Assembly (NCBI GenBank): GCA_025935755.1
Contig: JAICUQ010000016.1
Coordinates: 1 to 35,570, forward strand
Direction: 5' to 3'
Length of the DNA stretch: 35,570 nt
Source of the DNA: Chthoniobacterales bacterium
Lineage (GTDB): Bacteria > Verrucomicrobiota > Verrucomicrobiia > Chthoniobacterales > UBA10450
Positions 232 to 23,822 of this stretch are shown piece by piece. The notes under the pieces are model-generated. The model worked only from the letters and a program-made list of their open reading frames with translations. It had not been told where the DNA came from and did not search any database. Position 1 is the first letter of the stretch. Every line of letters begins with the position of its first letter. The translations under genes and the position numbers were made by a program.

Positions 232-1338
232 TCAAACAATTTGCGGATGCGTGTGTCTGTGCCGGTCGCGAATTCGCTGAATTGCCCATGCAGCGTGCTC
301 CGCGATCAGCGGCTCTGCGTCGACTGCCGCGCGTTCGAGTGCTGGAAGATCGGATGGATCCCCGATATTCCCGAGCGCGACACACACGTTGCGCAGAAAT
401 CCTCGGCGCTTGATTCGTTTTATAGGCGAGTTCCTGAAGAGCGTTCGAAACTCCGTATCGGTTAGCTCCAGGTATTCGCGAAGCGACATGCCCGTCGTAG
501 ATTGGCGGGCCGAGAACGCGCTCTCCTGAGAGGCTTGGGCGAACCGGTTCCAGGGACAGGCCTCCAGACAATCATCACATCCGAAGATGCGATCTCCCAG
601 AAGCGGGCGAAACTCTACGGGAATGGCGGTCTTCAGTTCGATTGTCAGGTACGAAATGCAGCGGCGCGCATCCAATCGATGCGGAGCGGTGATCGCGCCT
701 GTTGGACAAGCAGTAATGCAGCGGTCGCATGTTCCACAGCGATCACGGGCTGGTTCATCCGTCGGCAATGCAAGCGTGGTCAAAACTTCCGCAAGGAAAA
801 ACCAGGTCCCGAGCCGCTCATGGATCAACATGGTGCTTTTACCCTGCCACCCAATTCCCCCTTCCGCGGCATGATCTCGCTCCAGTACCGGGCCGGTATC
901 AGTATAACATTTCTGCTGTCCGCCAAATGTGCGAAGGAACTCGTCGATCTTGTCCAGCTTTGCCGCGATCAGATCGTGGTAATCTTCGCCCCATGCATAG
1001 CGCGCAATCTTTCCTTTAGCGGCGCTCGTGGGATCGGCATCCTGCCCATCGCCCATTGGCTGGAAGCCGATGCCATTTTCAATTCCCTGGAAATAATTCA
1101 GCGCCAAGACAACAATCGACTGCGCCCCCGGTAAGATCTTCTCCGGATCACAACGTTTTTCTTCGCCTCGCTGCATGTAATTCATTTCGCCGTGCGCGCT
1201 GTCGCGCAACCATTCACGAAACGCGTTTGCATGCCTGGGCGAGTTGCAACGAGCTACGCGGCAGGAATCGAACCCGGTCTCTCTCGCATAAGAAACGAGC
1301 TGCGCCTTCAGCTCTATCGCCGAAATCCGGGCGATCAT
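232..1338 (-). CDS. queG: Epoxyqueuosine reductase QueG, with a repeat-derived insertion
   Basis: QueG reduces epoxyqueuosine to queuosine at the wobble position of GUN-anticodon tRNAs, using cobalamin and two 4Fe-4S clusters. The 368-residue protein shows the cobalamin-binding N-terminal half with the catalytic Asp in DTGP (about residue 147). One cluster motif is CGTCDRCITACP (201-212) and the second is CDDCLEACP (254-262). A HEAT-like C-terminus (LPALERAAVDAEPLIAEHAAWAIQ region) follows. The start codon overlaps the aroK stop by 4 bp (ATGA), so the genes are probably translationally coupled. Unusual: residues about 86-108, between ALNYFQG and GKIARYAWG, are longer than I expect for the family and are encoded by a degenerate copy of the repeat found in sua5 (peptide GIGFQPMGDGQDADPT). 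All cluster cysteines are present, so the enzyme should be active. Confidence 0.95.
   Translation of the reverse strand: MIARISAIELKAQLVSYARETGFDSCRVARCNSPRHANAFREWLRDSAHGEMNYMQRGEEKRCDPEKILPGAQSIVVLALNYFQGIENGIGFQPMGDGQDADPTSAAKGKIARYAWGEDYHDLIAAKLDKIDEFLRTFGGQQKCYTDTGPVLERDHAAEGGIGWQGKSTMLIHERLGTWFFLAEVLTTLALPTDEPARDRCGTCDRCITACPTGAITAPHRLDARRCISYLTIELKTAIPVEFRPLLGDRIFGCDDCLEACPWNRFAQASQESAFSARQSTTGMSLREYLELTDTEFRTLFRNSPIKRIKRRGFLRNVCVALGNIGDPSDLPALERAAVDAEPLIAEHAAWAIQRIRDRHRHTHPQIV
1028..1075 (-). repeat. Degenerate REP-pair element inside queG
   Basis: About 48 bp beginning on the plus strand with GTGG (1028-1031) and containing ATCGGCATCC and GGCTGGAAGCCGATGCC. It aligns, with several changes and a few deleted bases, to the reverse complement of the 52-bp repeats at 3355 and 4042. 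Relative to the sense strand of queG it has the same orientation as those copies have in sua5, and it is read in the same frame (GFQP...DAD.T). The divergence suggests it is older than the sua5 pair. Confidence 0.75.
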
Positions 1339-2094: not shown

Positions 2095-2586
2095 ATGCCT
2101 GAATCGACACCTTTGGTTGCAATCATTATGGGAAGTAAATCGGACTGGGACACAATGCGGAAAGCTGTGGAAACACTGGATGAACTCGGTGTGCCGAATG
2201 AAGCGCGCGTGCTGTCCGCGCATCGCACGCCCGACGCAACCACTGAATTTGCGCGAGGCGCGGTGGATCGAGGCCTGCGAGTGATCATCGCCGGAGCCGG
2301 CGGTGCGGCACATTTGGCTGGAGTCATTGCAGCCCACACATGGTTGCCGGTTCTTGGTGTGCCAATTCAATCGAAACTCCATGGACTTGATTCGCTGTTG
2401 TCAACGGCGCAAATGCCTGGCGGGATTCCCGTCGGAACGCTGGCCATAGGAGAAGCGGGCGCAAAAAACGCCGCGCTCCTGGCAGCTGCGATTCTCGCGA
2501 CGTCTGATGATACGCTTCGGCAAAAGCTGGAAGCATTTCGCAGGAAACAGTCGGAAGCGGTTCTTGCCGCAAAATTGCCAACCTGA
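2095..2586 (+). CDS. purE: N5-carboxyaminoimidazole ribonucleotide mutase
   Basis: PurE converts N5-CAIR to CAIR in de novo purine synthesis. The 163-residue product carries the class I PurE signatures: GSKSDWDTM near the N-terminus, the SAHRTPD active-site segment with its catalytic His, [23 protein letters not shown], and [10 protein letters not shown]. The frame is open from 1930, but the ATG at 2095 ([18 protein letters not shown]) matches family starts and the upstream part overlaps aroK. No purK is next to it in the window; the next gene is sua5 after a 140-bp gap filled by a repeat. There is no sign of disruption. Confidence 0.96.
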
Positions 2587-2591
2587 ACGCG

Positions 2592-2715
2592 GTCATCCTG
2601 AGCGGAGTCGAAGGATCCTTTAGTGGCACCATTCGCTTCGCCACGGGATGGAAAGCCTGGCCGCGTCCCGAAACTTTCGGGACTGCGTTGCAGCCTCGAT
2701 CTTGCTCGGAATGAC
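2592..2715. repeat. Dispersed inverted-end repeat, copy A (GTCATYC...GAATGAC)
   Basis: The ends are inverted: GTCATCCTGAGCGG at the left and GCTCGGAATGAC at the right. Inside is a nearly perfect hairpin, GTCCCGAAA (2665-2673) against TTTCGGGAC (2675-2683). The element fills most of the purE-sua5 gap and ends 11 bp before the sua5 start. It could act as a purE terminator hairpin, but no T-run follows. Related copies lie at 6983 and 13582. Confidence 0.75.
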
Positions 2716-2726
2716 GTCCCGGCGAA

Positions 2727-4430
2727 ATGCAAACTGATCTCCTCACAACGTCCACAACTACACAGCACGCGAAGGCTGTTGCGCGTGCGGTTGAACTGCT
2801 CAGGAAAGGCGAGGTCGTCGCACTGCCCACCGAAACTGTTTACGGACTCGCTGCATGTGCGCCCAATCCAATTGCAGTTGCAAAAATCTTTGAAGCGAAG
2901 AACCGACCGCGGTTCGATCCGCTGATTGTGCATCTGCCGAATCGCGGGTGGCTGGAGAGAATTGCGGAGGCGCCAGCAAGCGAACGGCAACTGATCGGCA
3001 AGTTGATCGATACGTTTTGGCCAGGGCCGCTCACATTGGTTCTTTTAAAGCGCGAGATTGTTCCCGACTTGGTGACAGCAGGATTAGATACTGTAGCGGT
3101 GCGATTCAGTGCCCATCCTGTATTCGCGGAAGTGCTAAGCGAATTGGATCAACCGATCGCCGCGCCGAGCGCCAACCGATTTGGACGCGTCAGTCCGACA
3201 ACCGCGCAGCACGTGTTGGATGAACTTGATGGGCGGATTCCATTGATCATCGATGCCGGGCCGACAGAACATGGTATCGAATCGACCATCGTCGCAGTTC
3301 GGCACGGCGGGATTGAGATCTTACGACGCGGTCCGATCACCGAAGACCAACTGCGTGGCCTCGGCTTTCAGCCGAGTGAGGTGATCGGCAGGGATGCCGA
3401 TGCCACAAGAGGAGCACGTGAAGTTGGCTTCCAACCAATGGATCCAAACACAGAGGTTCAGATTCGTCGCGGCACATCCCTGCCGCATTGGACGCAAAAA
3501 GATGCAACCTACGCGGTAACTTTTCGACTCGCCGATGCCTTGCCTGCGAAAGTGAGCGCCGATTGGCAGTTCGAGCGACGGGATACCGCTGAGCGAGCGC
3601 GTCGACAAAACCGCGAATTAACCGGTGCCGAACAGCGGCGCCTGGCAGAGCTTTTTTCTGAAAGAGTTGAAAGTTATCTCGATGCCGGCCACGGCAAATC
3701 CTGGCTGCGCGACGAAAGAATCGCGAAAGTCGTTGCCGACGCTCTCTTGCATTTCCATGGTGAACGTTACGAGCTGTCTGCCTGGTGTGTGATGCCGAAT
3801 CATGTGCACGTTGTTGTCCGGCCGATGCACGGACACATGCTTTCCGATATTTTGCACACTTGGAAATCGTTTACGGCGCAGCAGGCCAACCGATTGTTAC
3901 ATCGGAAGGGAGAGTTCTGGCAGCCCGAATCGTACGACCATTTGATTCGAGACCAACACGATTTTCGGAACCAAATTCGGTACGTAATTTCAAATCCCGC
4001 GAAGGGAGGTCTTCACGCTTGGCCATGGGTGGGAGTCACTCGTGGCCTCGGCTTCCAGCCGAGTGAGGTGATCGGCAGGGATGCCGATGCCACGATAATA
4101 CGCGCGCCGGGACAGTTGCCATCGCATTATGCACCGGCAACTCCGCTGCGTTTGATTGATAGCGCCGAAAATTTTGTTCCGCAGAAGGATCAGCGTGTTG
4201 GATTACTCGCCTGGAAATCAAGCGGGAACTCGCCAATCACCGGGGAGCGATTCGCGGCTGTTCGTAATCTGAGCAAACATGCAGACCTGCGCGAAGCCGC
4301 GGCCAACCTCTTTCGTTACCTGCGCGAACTCGACGCACTTGGCCTCGATCTGATCGTTGCGGAACGCGTCCCTACTCAAGGACTCGGTGCGGCGATCATG
4401 GACCGGCTTGAACGGGCGTCCCATGGCTGA
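2727..4430 (+). CDS. tsaC: Sua5/TsaC threonylcarbamoyl-AMP synthase interrupted in frame by a RAYT
   Basis: Sua5/TsaC makes threonylcarbamoyl-AMP from Thr, bicarbonate and ATP for the t6A37 modification of ANN-decoding tRNAs. Residues about 10-208 are a complete YrdC domain: LPTETVYGLA, the K/R motif in AKNRPRFDPL, APSANRFGRVSPT, HGIESTIV. Residues about 460-567 are the Sua5 domain, starting with the linker motif APGQLPSHYAP and ending with a TQGLGAAIMDRL-type tail. Between them sit about 246 extra residues: a translated repeat (GLGFQPSEVIGRDADAT, from 211), a RAYT transposase (from Met238) and the same repeat peptide again (from 440). The whole 567-codon frame is open. Removing one 687-bp unit gives 338 residues, normal for the Sua5 type. 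Whether the product is a stable fusion, is processed, or is made active only after excision cannot be told from sequence. The ATG at 2727 precedes the conserved N-terminus and lacks a strong Shine-Dalgarno sequence. Confidence 0.9.
   Translation: MQTDLLTTSTTTQHAKAVARAVELLRKGEVVALPTETVYGLAACAPNPIAVAKIFEAKNRPRFDPLIVHLPNRGWLERIAEAPASERQLIGKLIDTFWPGPLTLVLLKREIVPDLVTAGLDTVAVRFSAHPVFAEVLSELDQPIAAPSANRFGRVSPTTAQHVLDELDGRIPLIIDAGPTEHGIESTIVAVRHGGIEILRRGPITEDQLRGLGFQPSEVIGRDADATRGAREVGFQPMDPNTEVQIRRGTSLPHWTQKDATYAVTFRLADALPAKVSADWQFERRDTAERARRQNRELTGAEQRRLAELFSERVESYLDAGHGKSWLRDERIAKVVADALLHFHGERYELSAWCVMPNHVHVVVRPMHGHMLSDILHTWKSFTAQQANRLLHRKGEFWQPESYDHLIRDQHDFRNQIRYVISNPAKGGLHAWPWVGVTRGLGFQPSEVIGRDADATIIRAPGQLPSHYAPATPLRLIDSAENFVPQKDQRVGLLAWKSSGNSPITGERFAAVRNLSKHADLREAAANLFRYLRELDALGLDLIVAERVPTQGLGAAIMDRLERASHG
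3355..3406 (+). repeat. REP pair (BIME-like), left copy in sua5
   Basis: 52 bp. An outer stem GTGGC (3355-3359) pairs with GCCAC (3402-3406). Inside are two perfect hairpins: CTCGGCT, loop TTC, AGCCGAG (3360-3376), and ATCGGCA, loop GGGA, TGCCGAT (3384-3401). Both strands therefore begin with GTGG before a hairpin. This matches the GTRG tetranucleotide that RAYT proteins recognise at the foot of REP hairpins, arranged as an inverted pair. In the sua5 frame it encodes GLGFQPSEVIGRDADAT. Only one of the three forward frames is free of stops, and that is the one used. Confidence 0.9.
4042..4093 (+). repeat. REP pair (BIME-like), right copy in sua5
   Basis: Identical to the copy at 3355-3406 except for one base in the first hairpin loop (TCC instead of TTC). 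The preceding C is also shared, and identity stops sharply after the final CAC. The start-to-start distance is 687 bp, a multiple of three. The Sua5 linker motif APGQLPSHYAP begins a few codons downstream. Confidence 0.9.
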
Positions 4431-4433
4431 AAA

Positions 4434-4451
4434 GCGGCGCAGCAGCGCCGC
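4434..4451. terminator. GC-rich palindrome between convergent sua5 and pyrG
   Basis: GCGGCGC, loop AGCA, GCGCCGC lies 3 bp after the sua5 stop in the 131-bp convergent gap. It is flanked by short A runs (AAAA before, CTCCAAAAC after), so it could stop transcription from pyrG (reading leftwards into TTTT) and, less well, from sua5. It also looks like a dispersed palindrome family (compare 28889-28903), so a terminator role is inference. Confidence 0.45.
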
Positions 4452-4561
4452 ACTCCAAAACATGCCGGGAATCACAACGGGTGAAGACGATTTGTGTTTT
4501 GTAGTCCCGCAGTGTTTCGCCATCTTCGCTTATCTCGGCGAAACAAATCCCGTGTTGTGCG

Positions 4562-6978
<2,417 letters not shown>

Positions 6979-22025: not shown

Positions 22026-22760
22026 TCACAAAAATCGCTGCGCGTTGATGAACTCGGACACGAACGGATCGGCAGGTCTTTCGCGCAGGTCGGCTATCGT
22101 GCCTCGTTGTACGATGCGGCCTTCGTTCATGAGCACGATCTCGTCAGCGAAGTAAATTGCCTCCGACAAGTCGTGAGTCACGAAGACCACTGTTTGACGA
22201 AGCCGTGTGAAGATTTCCCGAAGATCTTTTTGCAACGAGGCGCGCACCAACGGGTCGAGTGCACCGAGCGGCTCATCGAGCAATAACAACTCTGGCGAAA
22301 GCATCAACGCGCGCATTAAACTTACACGCTGACGTTGGCCACCCGAGAGTTCCACCGGATAGCGGGAGAGCAGGTTTGGTGAAAATCTTGTCAGCTCGGA
22401 TAATTCCGTGAGCCGGTCGTGCGTTTGTTTTTCGGGTTTTCCAATGTGACGCGCCATCAAAAGAACATTGGCCCGAGCGGTTAGATGAGGGAAAAGACCG
22501 CCTTCCTGAATCACGTAACCGATACGGCGCCGCAAAGCATCGATGTTATCGCGAGTAACCGGTTCGCCATCTAACTCGATCGAACCCGAATCCGGTTCGA
22601 TTAGACCAATGATCAGTCGCAGCAAGGTTGACTTTCCACAGCCACTTGGTCCGATAAGCACTGTGGTTTTGCCGCGGTCCAAAGAAAGACTCGTTAGGTG
22701 CAGCGCAACGTCCTCACCGTAGCGTTTACTGACTTCGATAAGTTGAACCAGCGCGCTCAT
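22026..22760 (-). CDS. ABC transporter ATP-binding protein, osmoprotectant/quaternary-amine type
   Basis: 244 residues. Walker A is GPSGCGKST, the Q-loop is IGYVIQEGGLFPHLTARAN, the signature is LSGGQRQRVSL and Walker B is LLLLDEPLGALDP, with the switch His in VFVTHD. RRRIGYVIQEGGLFPHLT and the DLSEAIYFADEIVLMNEGRIVQ style fit the ProV/OpuCA branch. The C-terminal CBS pair found in OpuCA/ProV is absent, so the osmotic-sensing module is lacking. It powers the binding/permease fusion encoded immediately downstream. Confidence 0.92.
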   Translation of the reverse strand: MSALVQLIEVSKRYGEDVALHLTSLSLDRGKTTVLIGPSGCGKSTLLRLIIGLIEPDSGSIELDGEPVTRDNIDALRRRIGYVIQEGGLFPHLTARANVLLMARHIGKPEKQTHDRLTELSELTRFSPNLLSRYPVELSGGQRQRVSLMRALMLSPELLLLDEPLGALDPLVRASLQKDLREIFTRLRQTVVFVTHDLSEAIYFADEIVLMNEGRIVQRGTIADLRERPADPFVSEFINAQRFL

Positions 22761-22862: not shown

Positions 22863-23822
22863 GAAATAGAACACACCAAATAAAGCGGCCGCGTCGGTCC
22901 ACATGCGCACAAAGTGGAACCCGGCTTTGGCAGCCAACCGCGCAAACTCGTCTGGCGCGTATTTATAAGAAAATTCCGTGATGATTTTCTCTTCGCGACT
23001 GAAATGGAATTTGTGTTGATTGAGATGGACAAACTGATCCGTCTCACTGACGAGATGCATTTCAATCCTGCCGGCATCTGAATTGTAGATTGCCCGGTGG
23101 CTCCAGCGATCCAGATCGAAGTCTGCGCCTAATTCGCGATTGATACGTCGCAGCAAATTCAGGTTAAATTGCGCAGTGACGCCTGCGCGGTCGTTATATG
23201 CCGCTTCCAGCACCCGGCGATCTTTCTTCAAATCGACGCCGATAAGCAGTCCGCCGCCTCCGCGGCAGACATTCGCGACGCGTCGCAAAAACTCCGCAGC
23301 TTCATCGGGCTCGAAGTTCCCGATCGTCGATCCCGGAAAATAGACAATGTTTCGCGCAGGCTTGCGACTGGGGCGGGGCAACACCACAGGTTGCAAGTAG
23401 TCCGCACAGACCGGCAGGATTTCCAGATTGGGAAAAATTTTGCGGAATAGAGCAGTCGACTCGCGCAGTTGTTGCTCCGAGATGTCGACGGGGACATAAA
23501 CGGCAGGATTGTCGAGCGCTTCGATCAGAATCCGCGTTTTTGTGCCGGCGCCGGTGCCAAGTCCGATTAATTGAACGTCCGGCCCGAGTTCAGACGCGAT
23601 GTCGGTGCGATTTCGATCGAGGATGTCGATCTCAGTCCGGGTAACGTAATATTCAGGCAGCTCGCAGATCTTTTGAAAGAGCACCGCACCCTCCGCATCA
23701 TAGAAATATTTGCAAGGGATCGTGCGCGGATTGGATGACAGACCGGCAATAACATCTGCCTGAAACTCCGCCGCTTCTGGTGCGGAAACATGGGGCAAGG
23801 TCGTAATTGAATCTGCGGTCAT
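22854..23822 (-). CDS. egtD: L-histidine N-alpha-methyltransferase EgtD
   Basis: EgtD trimethylates histidine to hercynine with three SAM, the first step of ergothioneine synthesis. The 322-residue protein has the family N-terminus (VIAGLSSNPRTIPCKYFYDAEGAVLFQKICELPEYYVTRTE), the SAM-binding GLGTGAGTKTRILIEAL, VPVDISEQQL, YFPGSTIGNFEP, and GVDLKKDRRVLEAAYND, ending with FHFVRMWTDAAALFGVFYF. It starts 45 bp after the egtB stop on the same strand. The order egtB-egtD as a pair is common. A repeat overlaps the stop codon. Confidence 0.96.
   Translation of the reverse strand: MTADSITTLPHVSAPEAAEFQADVIAGLSSNPRTIPCKYFYDAEGAVLFQKICELPEYYVTRTEIDILDRNRTDIASELGPDVQLIGLGTGAGTKTRILIEALDNPAVYVPVDISEQQLRESTALFRKIFPNLEILPVCADYLQPVVLPRPSRKPARNIVYFPGSTIGNFEPDEAAEFLRRVANVCRGGGGLLIGVDLKKDRRVLEAAYNDRAGVTAQFNLNLLRRINRELGADFDLDRWSHRAIYNSDAGRIEMHLVSETDQFVHLNQHKFHFSREEKIITEFSYKYAPDEFARLAAKAGFHFVRMWTDAAALFGVFYFTS

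Follow-up and report, generated by a model that had tools for sequence, protein, structure and literature searches.

Inteins interrupt conserved housekeeping genes in frame, are site specific, and are patchily distributed among relatives. The WHO elements of yeast home into a fixed housekeeping gene, FBA1, as set out in passages of Coughlan et al. (2020; PMC7282813). For REP-associated tyrosine transposases (RAYTs) of subclass 2.4, the corresponding passages of Quentin et al. (2018; PMC6006769) give NH[IFV]H, WQ, and YIxNNP-type motifs together with double-foot REPs; they also record REPs in frame within the transposase gene itself and the setting aside of long proteins as fusions or annotation errors. 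In-frame intragenic REPs, many of them in repair genes, are the subject of Di Nocera et al. (2013; PMC3733652), passages of which discuss linkers as tolerant sites and name the verrucomicrobium O. terrae as the richest GTAG case. Passages of three other papers (PMC8266576, PMC2817692, and PMC8049555) hold nothing on embedded RAYTs, and no description of whole embedded RAYTs was found in the open-access literature searched. In-frame REPs are already known; whole RAYTs embedded in host proteins would be new.

The window analyzed here (the whole stretch of 35,570 nucleotides, which is also an entire contig, C18, of a Chthoniobacterales assembly with 270 contigs and a total of 3.67 Mb, at 90.4% completeness and 2.2% contamination) contains a forward-strand frame at positions 2727 to 4430 that is open for 567 codons. 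It encodes, in order, the Sua5 YrdC domain, a REP, a RAYT, a second REP, and the Sua5 C-terminal domain. The N-terminal part (2727 to 3353; TIGR00057) matched Pfam Sua5_yciO_yrdC (PF01300) at residues 23 to 202 with an E value of 1.8e-52, and the C-terminal part with the stop codon (4101 to 4430), the start of which agrees with the linker ends of relatives, matched Sua5_C (PF03481) at residues 454 to 565 (3.5e-25). The NCBIfam model for L-threonylcarbamoyladenylate synthase was also matched. The insert at the junction of the two domains is 747 nt long and in frame, compared to about 48 nt at this place in most of the relatives examined. In solved Sua5 structures the site lies between both domains, and structures 6f87 and 2eqa matched the fused protein in two stretches that break off and restart around the insert. 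The preliminary description, which had placed an in-frame RAYT with REPs and without its own stop codon in the YrdC/Sua5 linker, is thus borne out by the 567-codon frame and the Pfam domains.

The RAYT is bounded by two direct repeats of 53 nt (98% identity) at 3354 to 3406 and 4041 to 4093 on the forward strand, spaced 687 nt apart (3 × 229). Both are translated through in the host frame. The left REP, identified also with the help of REPs of relatives, is a "double foot" (GTGGC ... GCCAC) of two hairpins read in frame as RGLGFQPSEVIGRDADAT; as single strands, the left and right REPs folded much more stably than their own shuffles, with z scores of −4.8 and −5.7. A REP-like half (GTTGGCTTCCAACC; about 3418 to 3445, forward strand, with a pattern match at 3426 to 3436) lies between the left REP and the RAYT. 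Two REP pairs had originally been described around the RAYT; the RAYT and its REPs stand, but the REPs are two double feet plus this half.

The RAYT domain itself (3465 to 4034, forward strand) has neither a stop codon of its own nor a start codon that could be marked, and it is read only within the 567-codon frame, whereas a typical RAYT is an independent gene with start and stop codons. It matched Y1_Tnp at residues 346 to 404 (1.7e-5; 25.4 against a cutoff of 23) and the NCBIfam REP-associated tyrosine transposase model NF047646 at 2.6e-20, with 72.8 bits, below that model's cutoff of 80. The best structure match of the middle of the fused protein, by sequence as well as by predicted fold, was Escherichia coli TnpAREP (4er8). 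The RAYT carries the motifs NHVH, FWQ, and YVISNP, and its REPs have the form GTGG...CCAC. Its HUH motif (H359 and H361; 3801 to 3809) and its catalytic-type tyrosine (Y419; 3981 to 3983) were invariant in alignment A3. Y419 aligns with TnpAREP Y115 and would be its counterpart, in keeping with a literature passage on Y115F. In the predicted model, pLDDT over residues 251 to 440 was 71 to 98 and mostly above 84. RAYTs were confidently modeled, and the Sua5 and FabZ halves were poor because few alignment rows were supplied for them, so that the models do not test host tolerance.

A search of the source genome for a second sua5/tsaC gene found none: PF01300 matched once in the 90.4%-complete assembly, and an intact copy beside a decaying one, which had been named as the observation that would speak against the fusion, was not seen. 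A second YrdC gene in this genome is unlikely. Two further RAYTs are embedded in frames of 895 and 1178 codons, one in RecG and the other in AlaRS, and in both fusions the host profile matched in two stretches, one on each side of the RAYT. Y1_Tnp (E ≤ 0.1) matched nine places in the genome; three are the embedded copies, and the other six lie in frames of 145 to 337 codons. At L014 (contig C104), a Y1 transposase of 142 codons with a weak match stands alone next to a murC-like gene. REPs of the kind that flank the window RAYT recur elsewhere in the genome, which has 5 Sua5-type sites, 3 of them in the window, and 44 RecG-type sites (0 in a backward control). A solo double-foot REP, recognized by its pattern, its sequence, and the frame that covers it, lies in frame at 1028 to 1076 (reverse strand) in the neighboring queG gene for epoxyqueuosine reductase (232 to 1338, reverse strand). 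RecG-type REPs also lie in frame in two genes of the source genome that resemble folC and mfd, as judged by eye only (L323 on contig C59 and L324 on contig C66).

Of the 73 family genomes that matched at E ≤ 1e-60, 4 carried Sua5-RAYT fusions (G000, G176, G060, and G067), so the insertion is not unique. Four other genomes (G001, G007, G164, and G167) have a single in-frame REP at the Sua5 site. In most other relatives compared, the linker is native and about 48 nt long. The forms with a RAYT and those with a REP have identical end points, and the native linker is absent from both; the insert had been thought to add to the linker, and it replaces it instead. In the host tree of Sua5 (in which the empty gene L205 carried the label REP and L022 was left out as odd, with RAYT labels unaffected), the four RAYT holders were scattered, with 4 changes forced by well-supported branches, and their RAYTs formed one clade. 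G176 is a near-sister of G016, which has a native-looking linker.

RecG was matched in 77 of 83 family genomes. The RecG comparison and tree included the 30 best-scoring fused genes and 20 hand-picked unfused genes, a nonrandom sample in which the G007 and G023 rows are nearly identical. The reading frame was kept in 50/50 of these genes. In all 30 inserts the host frame was open and the other five frames were not, and none of the 30 had a stand-alone start and stop. Two RAYT lineages, A (18 genes) and B (12 genes), occupy the same place in RecG, and these RecG-type RAYTs differ from the Sua5 type in having DHVH and WE motifs and GTAG feet. When the states A, B, and none were mapped onto the host tree of the selected genes, there were 22 changes, compared to a shuffled mean of 23.3 (as low in 71/200 shuffles), and thus RecG occupancy follows no clade. 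Even close relatives present a mixture of sites that are occupied, swapped, or empty: RecG of G169 (lineage B) and G010 (none) are about 0.03 changes per site apart, and those of the sister species G149 (A) and G147 (B) are 0.057 apart. In-frame remnants of the right REP were detected in RecG of G008 and G138. The linkers of the 20 unfused genes were native looking in ten cases and altered in the other ten. Fused and unfused RecG genes were present on separate contigs of both G022 and G023, and the fused copy of G023 is almost identical to that of G007; these are probably mixed assemblies.

Sequence divergence beside the insert was raised in 3 of 11 pairs that differ in status. Over the 36 nt on each side, G169 and G010 differed at 10/72 sites versus 35/1974 in the rest (P = 1.8e-6), G176 and G016 at 11/72 versus 46/822 in Sua5 (P = 0.004), and G149 and G147 at 11/72 versus 110/1758 (P = 0.006), a value that fails correction for 11 tests. 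The eight other pairs, which are more diverged, showed no raised flank divergence, nor did 11 control pairs (P ≥ 0.15). The pattern is consistent with the replacement of a short tract along with the insert, as in homing, and relaxed constraint near the linker could contribute to it. Recombination between the direct REPs 687 nt apart would, in the manner of a solo LTR, leave one in-frame REP, and this agrees with the spacing and with the solo REPs of G001, G007, G164, and G167. The native linker is replaced in all solo-REP genes, so that insertion of the REP first fits equally.

The insert is probably a REPtron, a RAYT between two REP hairpins, that would live inside a host protein as one of its domains, be shielded by the host frame, and spread like a homing element without splicing. 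The fusion would be translated as one chain, and the transposase would be made only within the host enzyme, so that its expression comes for free. Nonsense and frameshift mutations in the RAYT would be purged, since any of them would also disrupt the host enzyme ("frame locking"). The element may pass between species as an allele; either the RAYT would nick the empty site, or a transferred segment would be repaired by homologous recombination in short tracts, with homing-like reentry at the identical site. Loss could proceed through in-frame deletion that can leave a solo REP or a fragment. With the insert placed in a linker or surface loop, no splicing would be required.

An alternative is that each gene was entered once in an ancestor, with vertical inheritance and repeated in-frame deletion thereafter and no homing. 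Relics and solo REPs show that losses occur, and 10 of the 20 empty RecG genes have altered linkers (SGPLPLF...) like those of occupied genes, as if they had been emptied. The distances between RAYTs and those between their hosts were weakly correlated (Spearman 0.31, 68/2000 permutations, and 0.25, 146/2000), and thus part of the history is vertical. However, this correlation is far below that expected under strict codescent, with hosts 9% apart carrying RAYTs 30% apart. The RecG site is used by two RAYT lineages that are unrelated to each other, even in the sister species G149 and G147, and the linker of G016 looks native even though its near-sister G176 holds a RAYT in Sua5. Thus, it seems unlikely, while deserving real weight, that vertical descent with loss explains the distribution by itself.

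The phylogeny of the RAYTs bears on the homing-like reading as well. In a quick FastTree of 147 rows, with host labels assigned by eye and from profile scans, host site required 36 label changes, compared to a shuffled mean of 87.7 (as low in 0/200 shuffles); some of this clustering may stem from taxa sampled at one site only. Within the family, RAYTs at different sites of one genome belong to different clades. In the RecG comparison and the RAYT tree, the elements accordingly show the homing-element pattern of one site, one gene, and a site-bound lineage. One CarB linker (L069, G004 contig C99) holds a RecG-type RAYT, whereas other CarB linkers (L044 to L052) hold Sua5-type RAYTs. A RAYT of the RecG A lineage lies outside any long gene, and its 228-codon frame also reads through both REPs (L059, G023 contig C141).

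Embedded RAYTs are not confined to these genes. In 39 relatives, many RAYTs among the matches listed were within frames 500 to 1619 codons long, and the 40 stretches that were read had RAYTs in RecG, CarB, MetH (at two sites), AlaRS, ValRS, ClpB, a RarA-like ATPase, and a restriction enzyme. Profile A2 was built from 21 RAYTs, 20 of them embedded, which biases the embedded shares in the following counts upward: in the order, 44 of 117 genomes matched at E ≤ 1e-20, and 67 of 94 RAYT matches were inside frames of at least 500 codons (two frames had two matches each); in the phylum, 81 of 288 genomes matched at E ≤ 1e-30, with 50 of the 140 matches in frames of that length. As a control, IS200 TnpA (NF033573; E ≤ 1e-10) in the same 117 genomes was in a long frame, of 503 codons, in 1 of 77 cases. 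Among named GTDB contigs, the best 80 of 455 confirmed loci included 30 in frames of at least 500 codons and 3 more in frames of 400 to 499; the loci came from Verrucomicrobiota, Planctomycetota, Kiritimatiellota, Acidobacteriota, Bacteroidota, Chloroflexota, Pseudomonadota, and others. Cultured relatives with candidate frames include Pontiellaceae B12227, Flavobacterium branchiophilum NBRC 15030, and Chloroflexales ZM16-3. The RAYT of one genome of the same order (G033) was identical to one in a record filed as Chthoniobacter flavus, which makes Chthoniobacterales the probable order. A single MetH gene (L057, G007 contig C150) contains two RAYTs at different sites, and a 717-codon frame of G086 (contig C330) has two equal-scoring RAYT matches, at 22158 to 22700 and 23010 to 23552, that are 852 nt apart and are perhaps an in-frame tandem duplication.

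NCBIfam scans of 32 fused proteins detected the REP-associated transposase model in 32/32 and a host model in two or more stretches in 22/32. About 20 host genes were hit in several phyla: the synthetases AlaRS, ThrRS, ValRS, and LeuRS; the DNA enzymes RecG, PriA, XseA, a RarA-like AAA protein, and a YoaA/DinG-like protein; CarB, MetH, ClpB, FabZ, IspG, adenosine deaminase, and a radical SAM protein; and HsdR, PglX-like methyltransferases, and DUF1156 proteins. In the uracil-DNA glycosylase L150, the RAYT precedes the domain rather than lying within it. The insertion was first described in an essential tRNA-modification gene; it is not peculiar to that gene, as about 20 further hosts contain in-frame RAYTs. 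Several hosts, namely, RecG, MetH, and restriction enzymes, are not essential in model bacteria.

It is possible in principle that the RAYT has been domesticated as a useful host domain, for example, one that aids DNA binding or the self-regulation of RecG or AlaRS. In RecG fusions, the pN/pS of the RAYT domain was 0.20 (lineage A, 152 pairs) and 0.25 (lineage B, 66 pairs), that of the host parts was 0.21 to 0.30, and that of REPs and spacers was 0.80 to 0.82, figures that are rough because pS is close to saturation (0.66 to 0.77). Unsaturated pairs gave RAYT dN/dS values of 0.11 (2 pairs) and 0.06 (1 pair). Judging from these ratios, the RAYT domain is under purifying selection at about the level of the RecG host, as a useful domain would be and as the REPtron reading also holds, and several of the hosts act in DNA repair or replication (RecG, PriA, XseA, and the RarA-like and YoaA/DinG-like proteins). 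However, occupancy is patchy even in close relatives with apparently normal genes, hosts without a plain link to DNA are found too (FabZ, IspG, CarB, MetH, and ThrRS), and the RAYT partner at one site changes. Domestication is therefore improbable.

The catalytic residues H, H, and Y are intact in 91 of the 95 distinct embedded copies and in 51 of 52 free copies (one of which, L124, lies in a 365-codon frame as a fusion with FabZ), so that catalytic conservation alone is not special to embedding. In the other four embedded copies, one of them the AlaRS copy of the source genome, a catalytic residue has been lost. The lack of stop codons in embedded copies was considered as evidence for frame locking and set aside as unusable, because embedding is itself called from an open frame.

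Removal of the insert before the enzyme works, either from the RNA as in introns or from the protein as in inteins, would equally suit a patchy and site-specific distribution, which inteins and group I introns share. However, an Rfam search of 2400 to 4800 at E ≤ 1 found no match, including to group I and group II introns, and no intein domain was listed for the fused protein by Pfam or NCBIfam. A spliced RNA need not stay open in the host frame, yet 30/30 RecG inserts do. Removal thus seems very improbable. Assembly error or a pseudogene, for which one could cite that the window makes up an entire contig in an assembly of 270 contigs and that REPs are repeats, was rejected as hardly credible, because Sua5-RAYT fusions occur in three other species and fusions recur in other assemblies, such as G060 (about 30 contigs), embedded frames are present in records without a MAG label (L138, L144, and L169, each with a host-model match on just one side), frames are intact, host domains are conserved, and no second copy was seen.

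More tentatively, and at a confidence somewhat short of evenly balanced, RAYTs may be non-splicing homing elements in Verrucomicrobiota, Planctomycetota, and further phyla, where they would fill the niche of inteins as protein-internal domains, using REPs and HUH chemistry to reenter at one fixed codon position and the host frame as a shield against decay. If this is true, a transposase persists as part of proteins that the host needs, at fixed sites and without splicing, and mobile DNA would have a new way of surviving. The long maintenance of RAYTs would become directly testable, as the host reading frame would protect them. The fusions would also be a natural catalogue of loops that accept a domain of 150 to 200 residues (in AlaRS, RecG, CarB, MetH, FabZ, and others), of use in protein engineering. 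There are two warnings as well: length filters in surveys throw such fusions out, and housekeeping names conceal transposases in the annotation of these bacteria.

With regard to known systems, the window RAYT resembles subclass 2.4 (Bertels group 4), as characterized in passages of Quentin et al. (2018; PMC6006769), in its HUH/Y1 type, NHVH motif, tyrosine before NP, and double-foot GTGG...CCAC REPs, a likeness of motifs rather than a placement in a tree with the sequences of that study. The RAYTs described in those passages are genes of their own, with median lengths of 148 to 325 amino acids by subclass, whereas the window RAYT is without a stop codon and inside a host protein. Like in-frame REPs and Rickettsia palindromic elements, its palindromes are read in frame inside genes, but the inserts reported in passages of Di Nocera et al. 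(PMC3733652) are REPs alone, mostly of 20 to 30 codons and at most 82, and the window has a complete transposase of a kind whose lineages keep to one site. WHO elements, which according to passages of Coughlan et al. (PMC7282813) "resemble inteins" and need no protein splicing, swap the 3′ end of FBA1; RAYTs sit within the host protein, with both halves in one chain. RAYT fusions share with inteins and other homing elements that they are in frame, site bound, patchy, and in housekeeping hosts, and the early comparison with inteins gains support from this site-specific, patchy occupancy. They differ from inteins in that the scans listed no splicing domain; the nuclease belongs to the HUH tyrosine transposases and not to the homing endonucleases, and the insert, as far as sequence can tell, stays in the protein. 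The element in the window would thus be a variant of the REPtron that departs from the usual form in lacking an independent gene and whose behavior is that of a homing element that does not splice.
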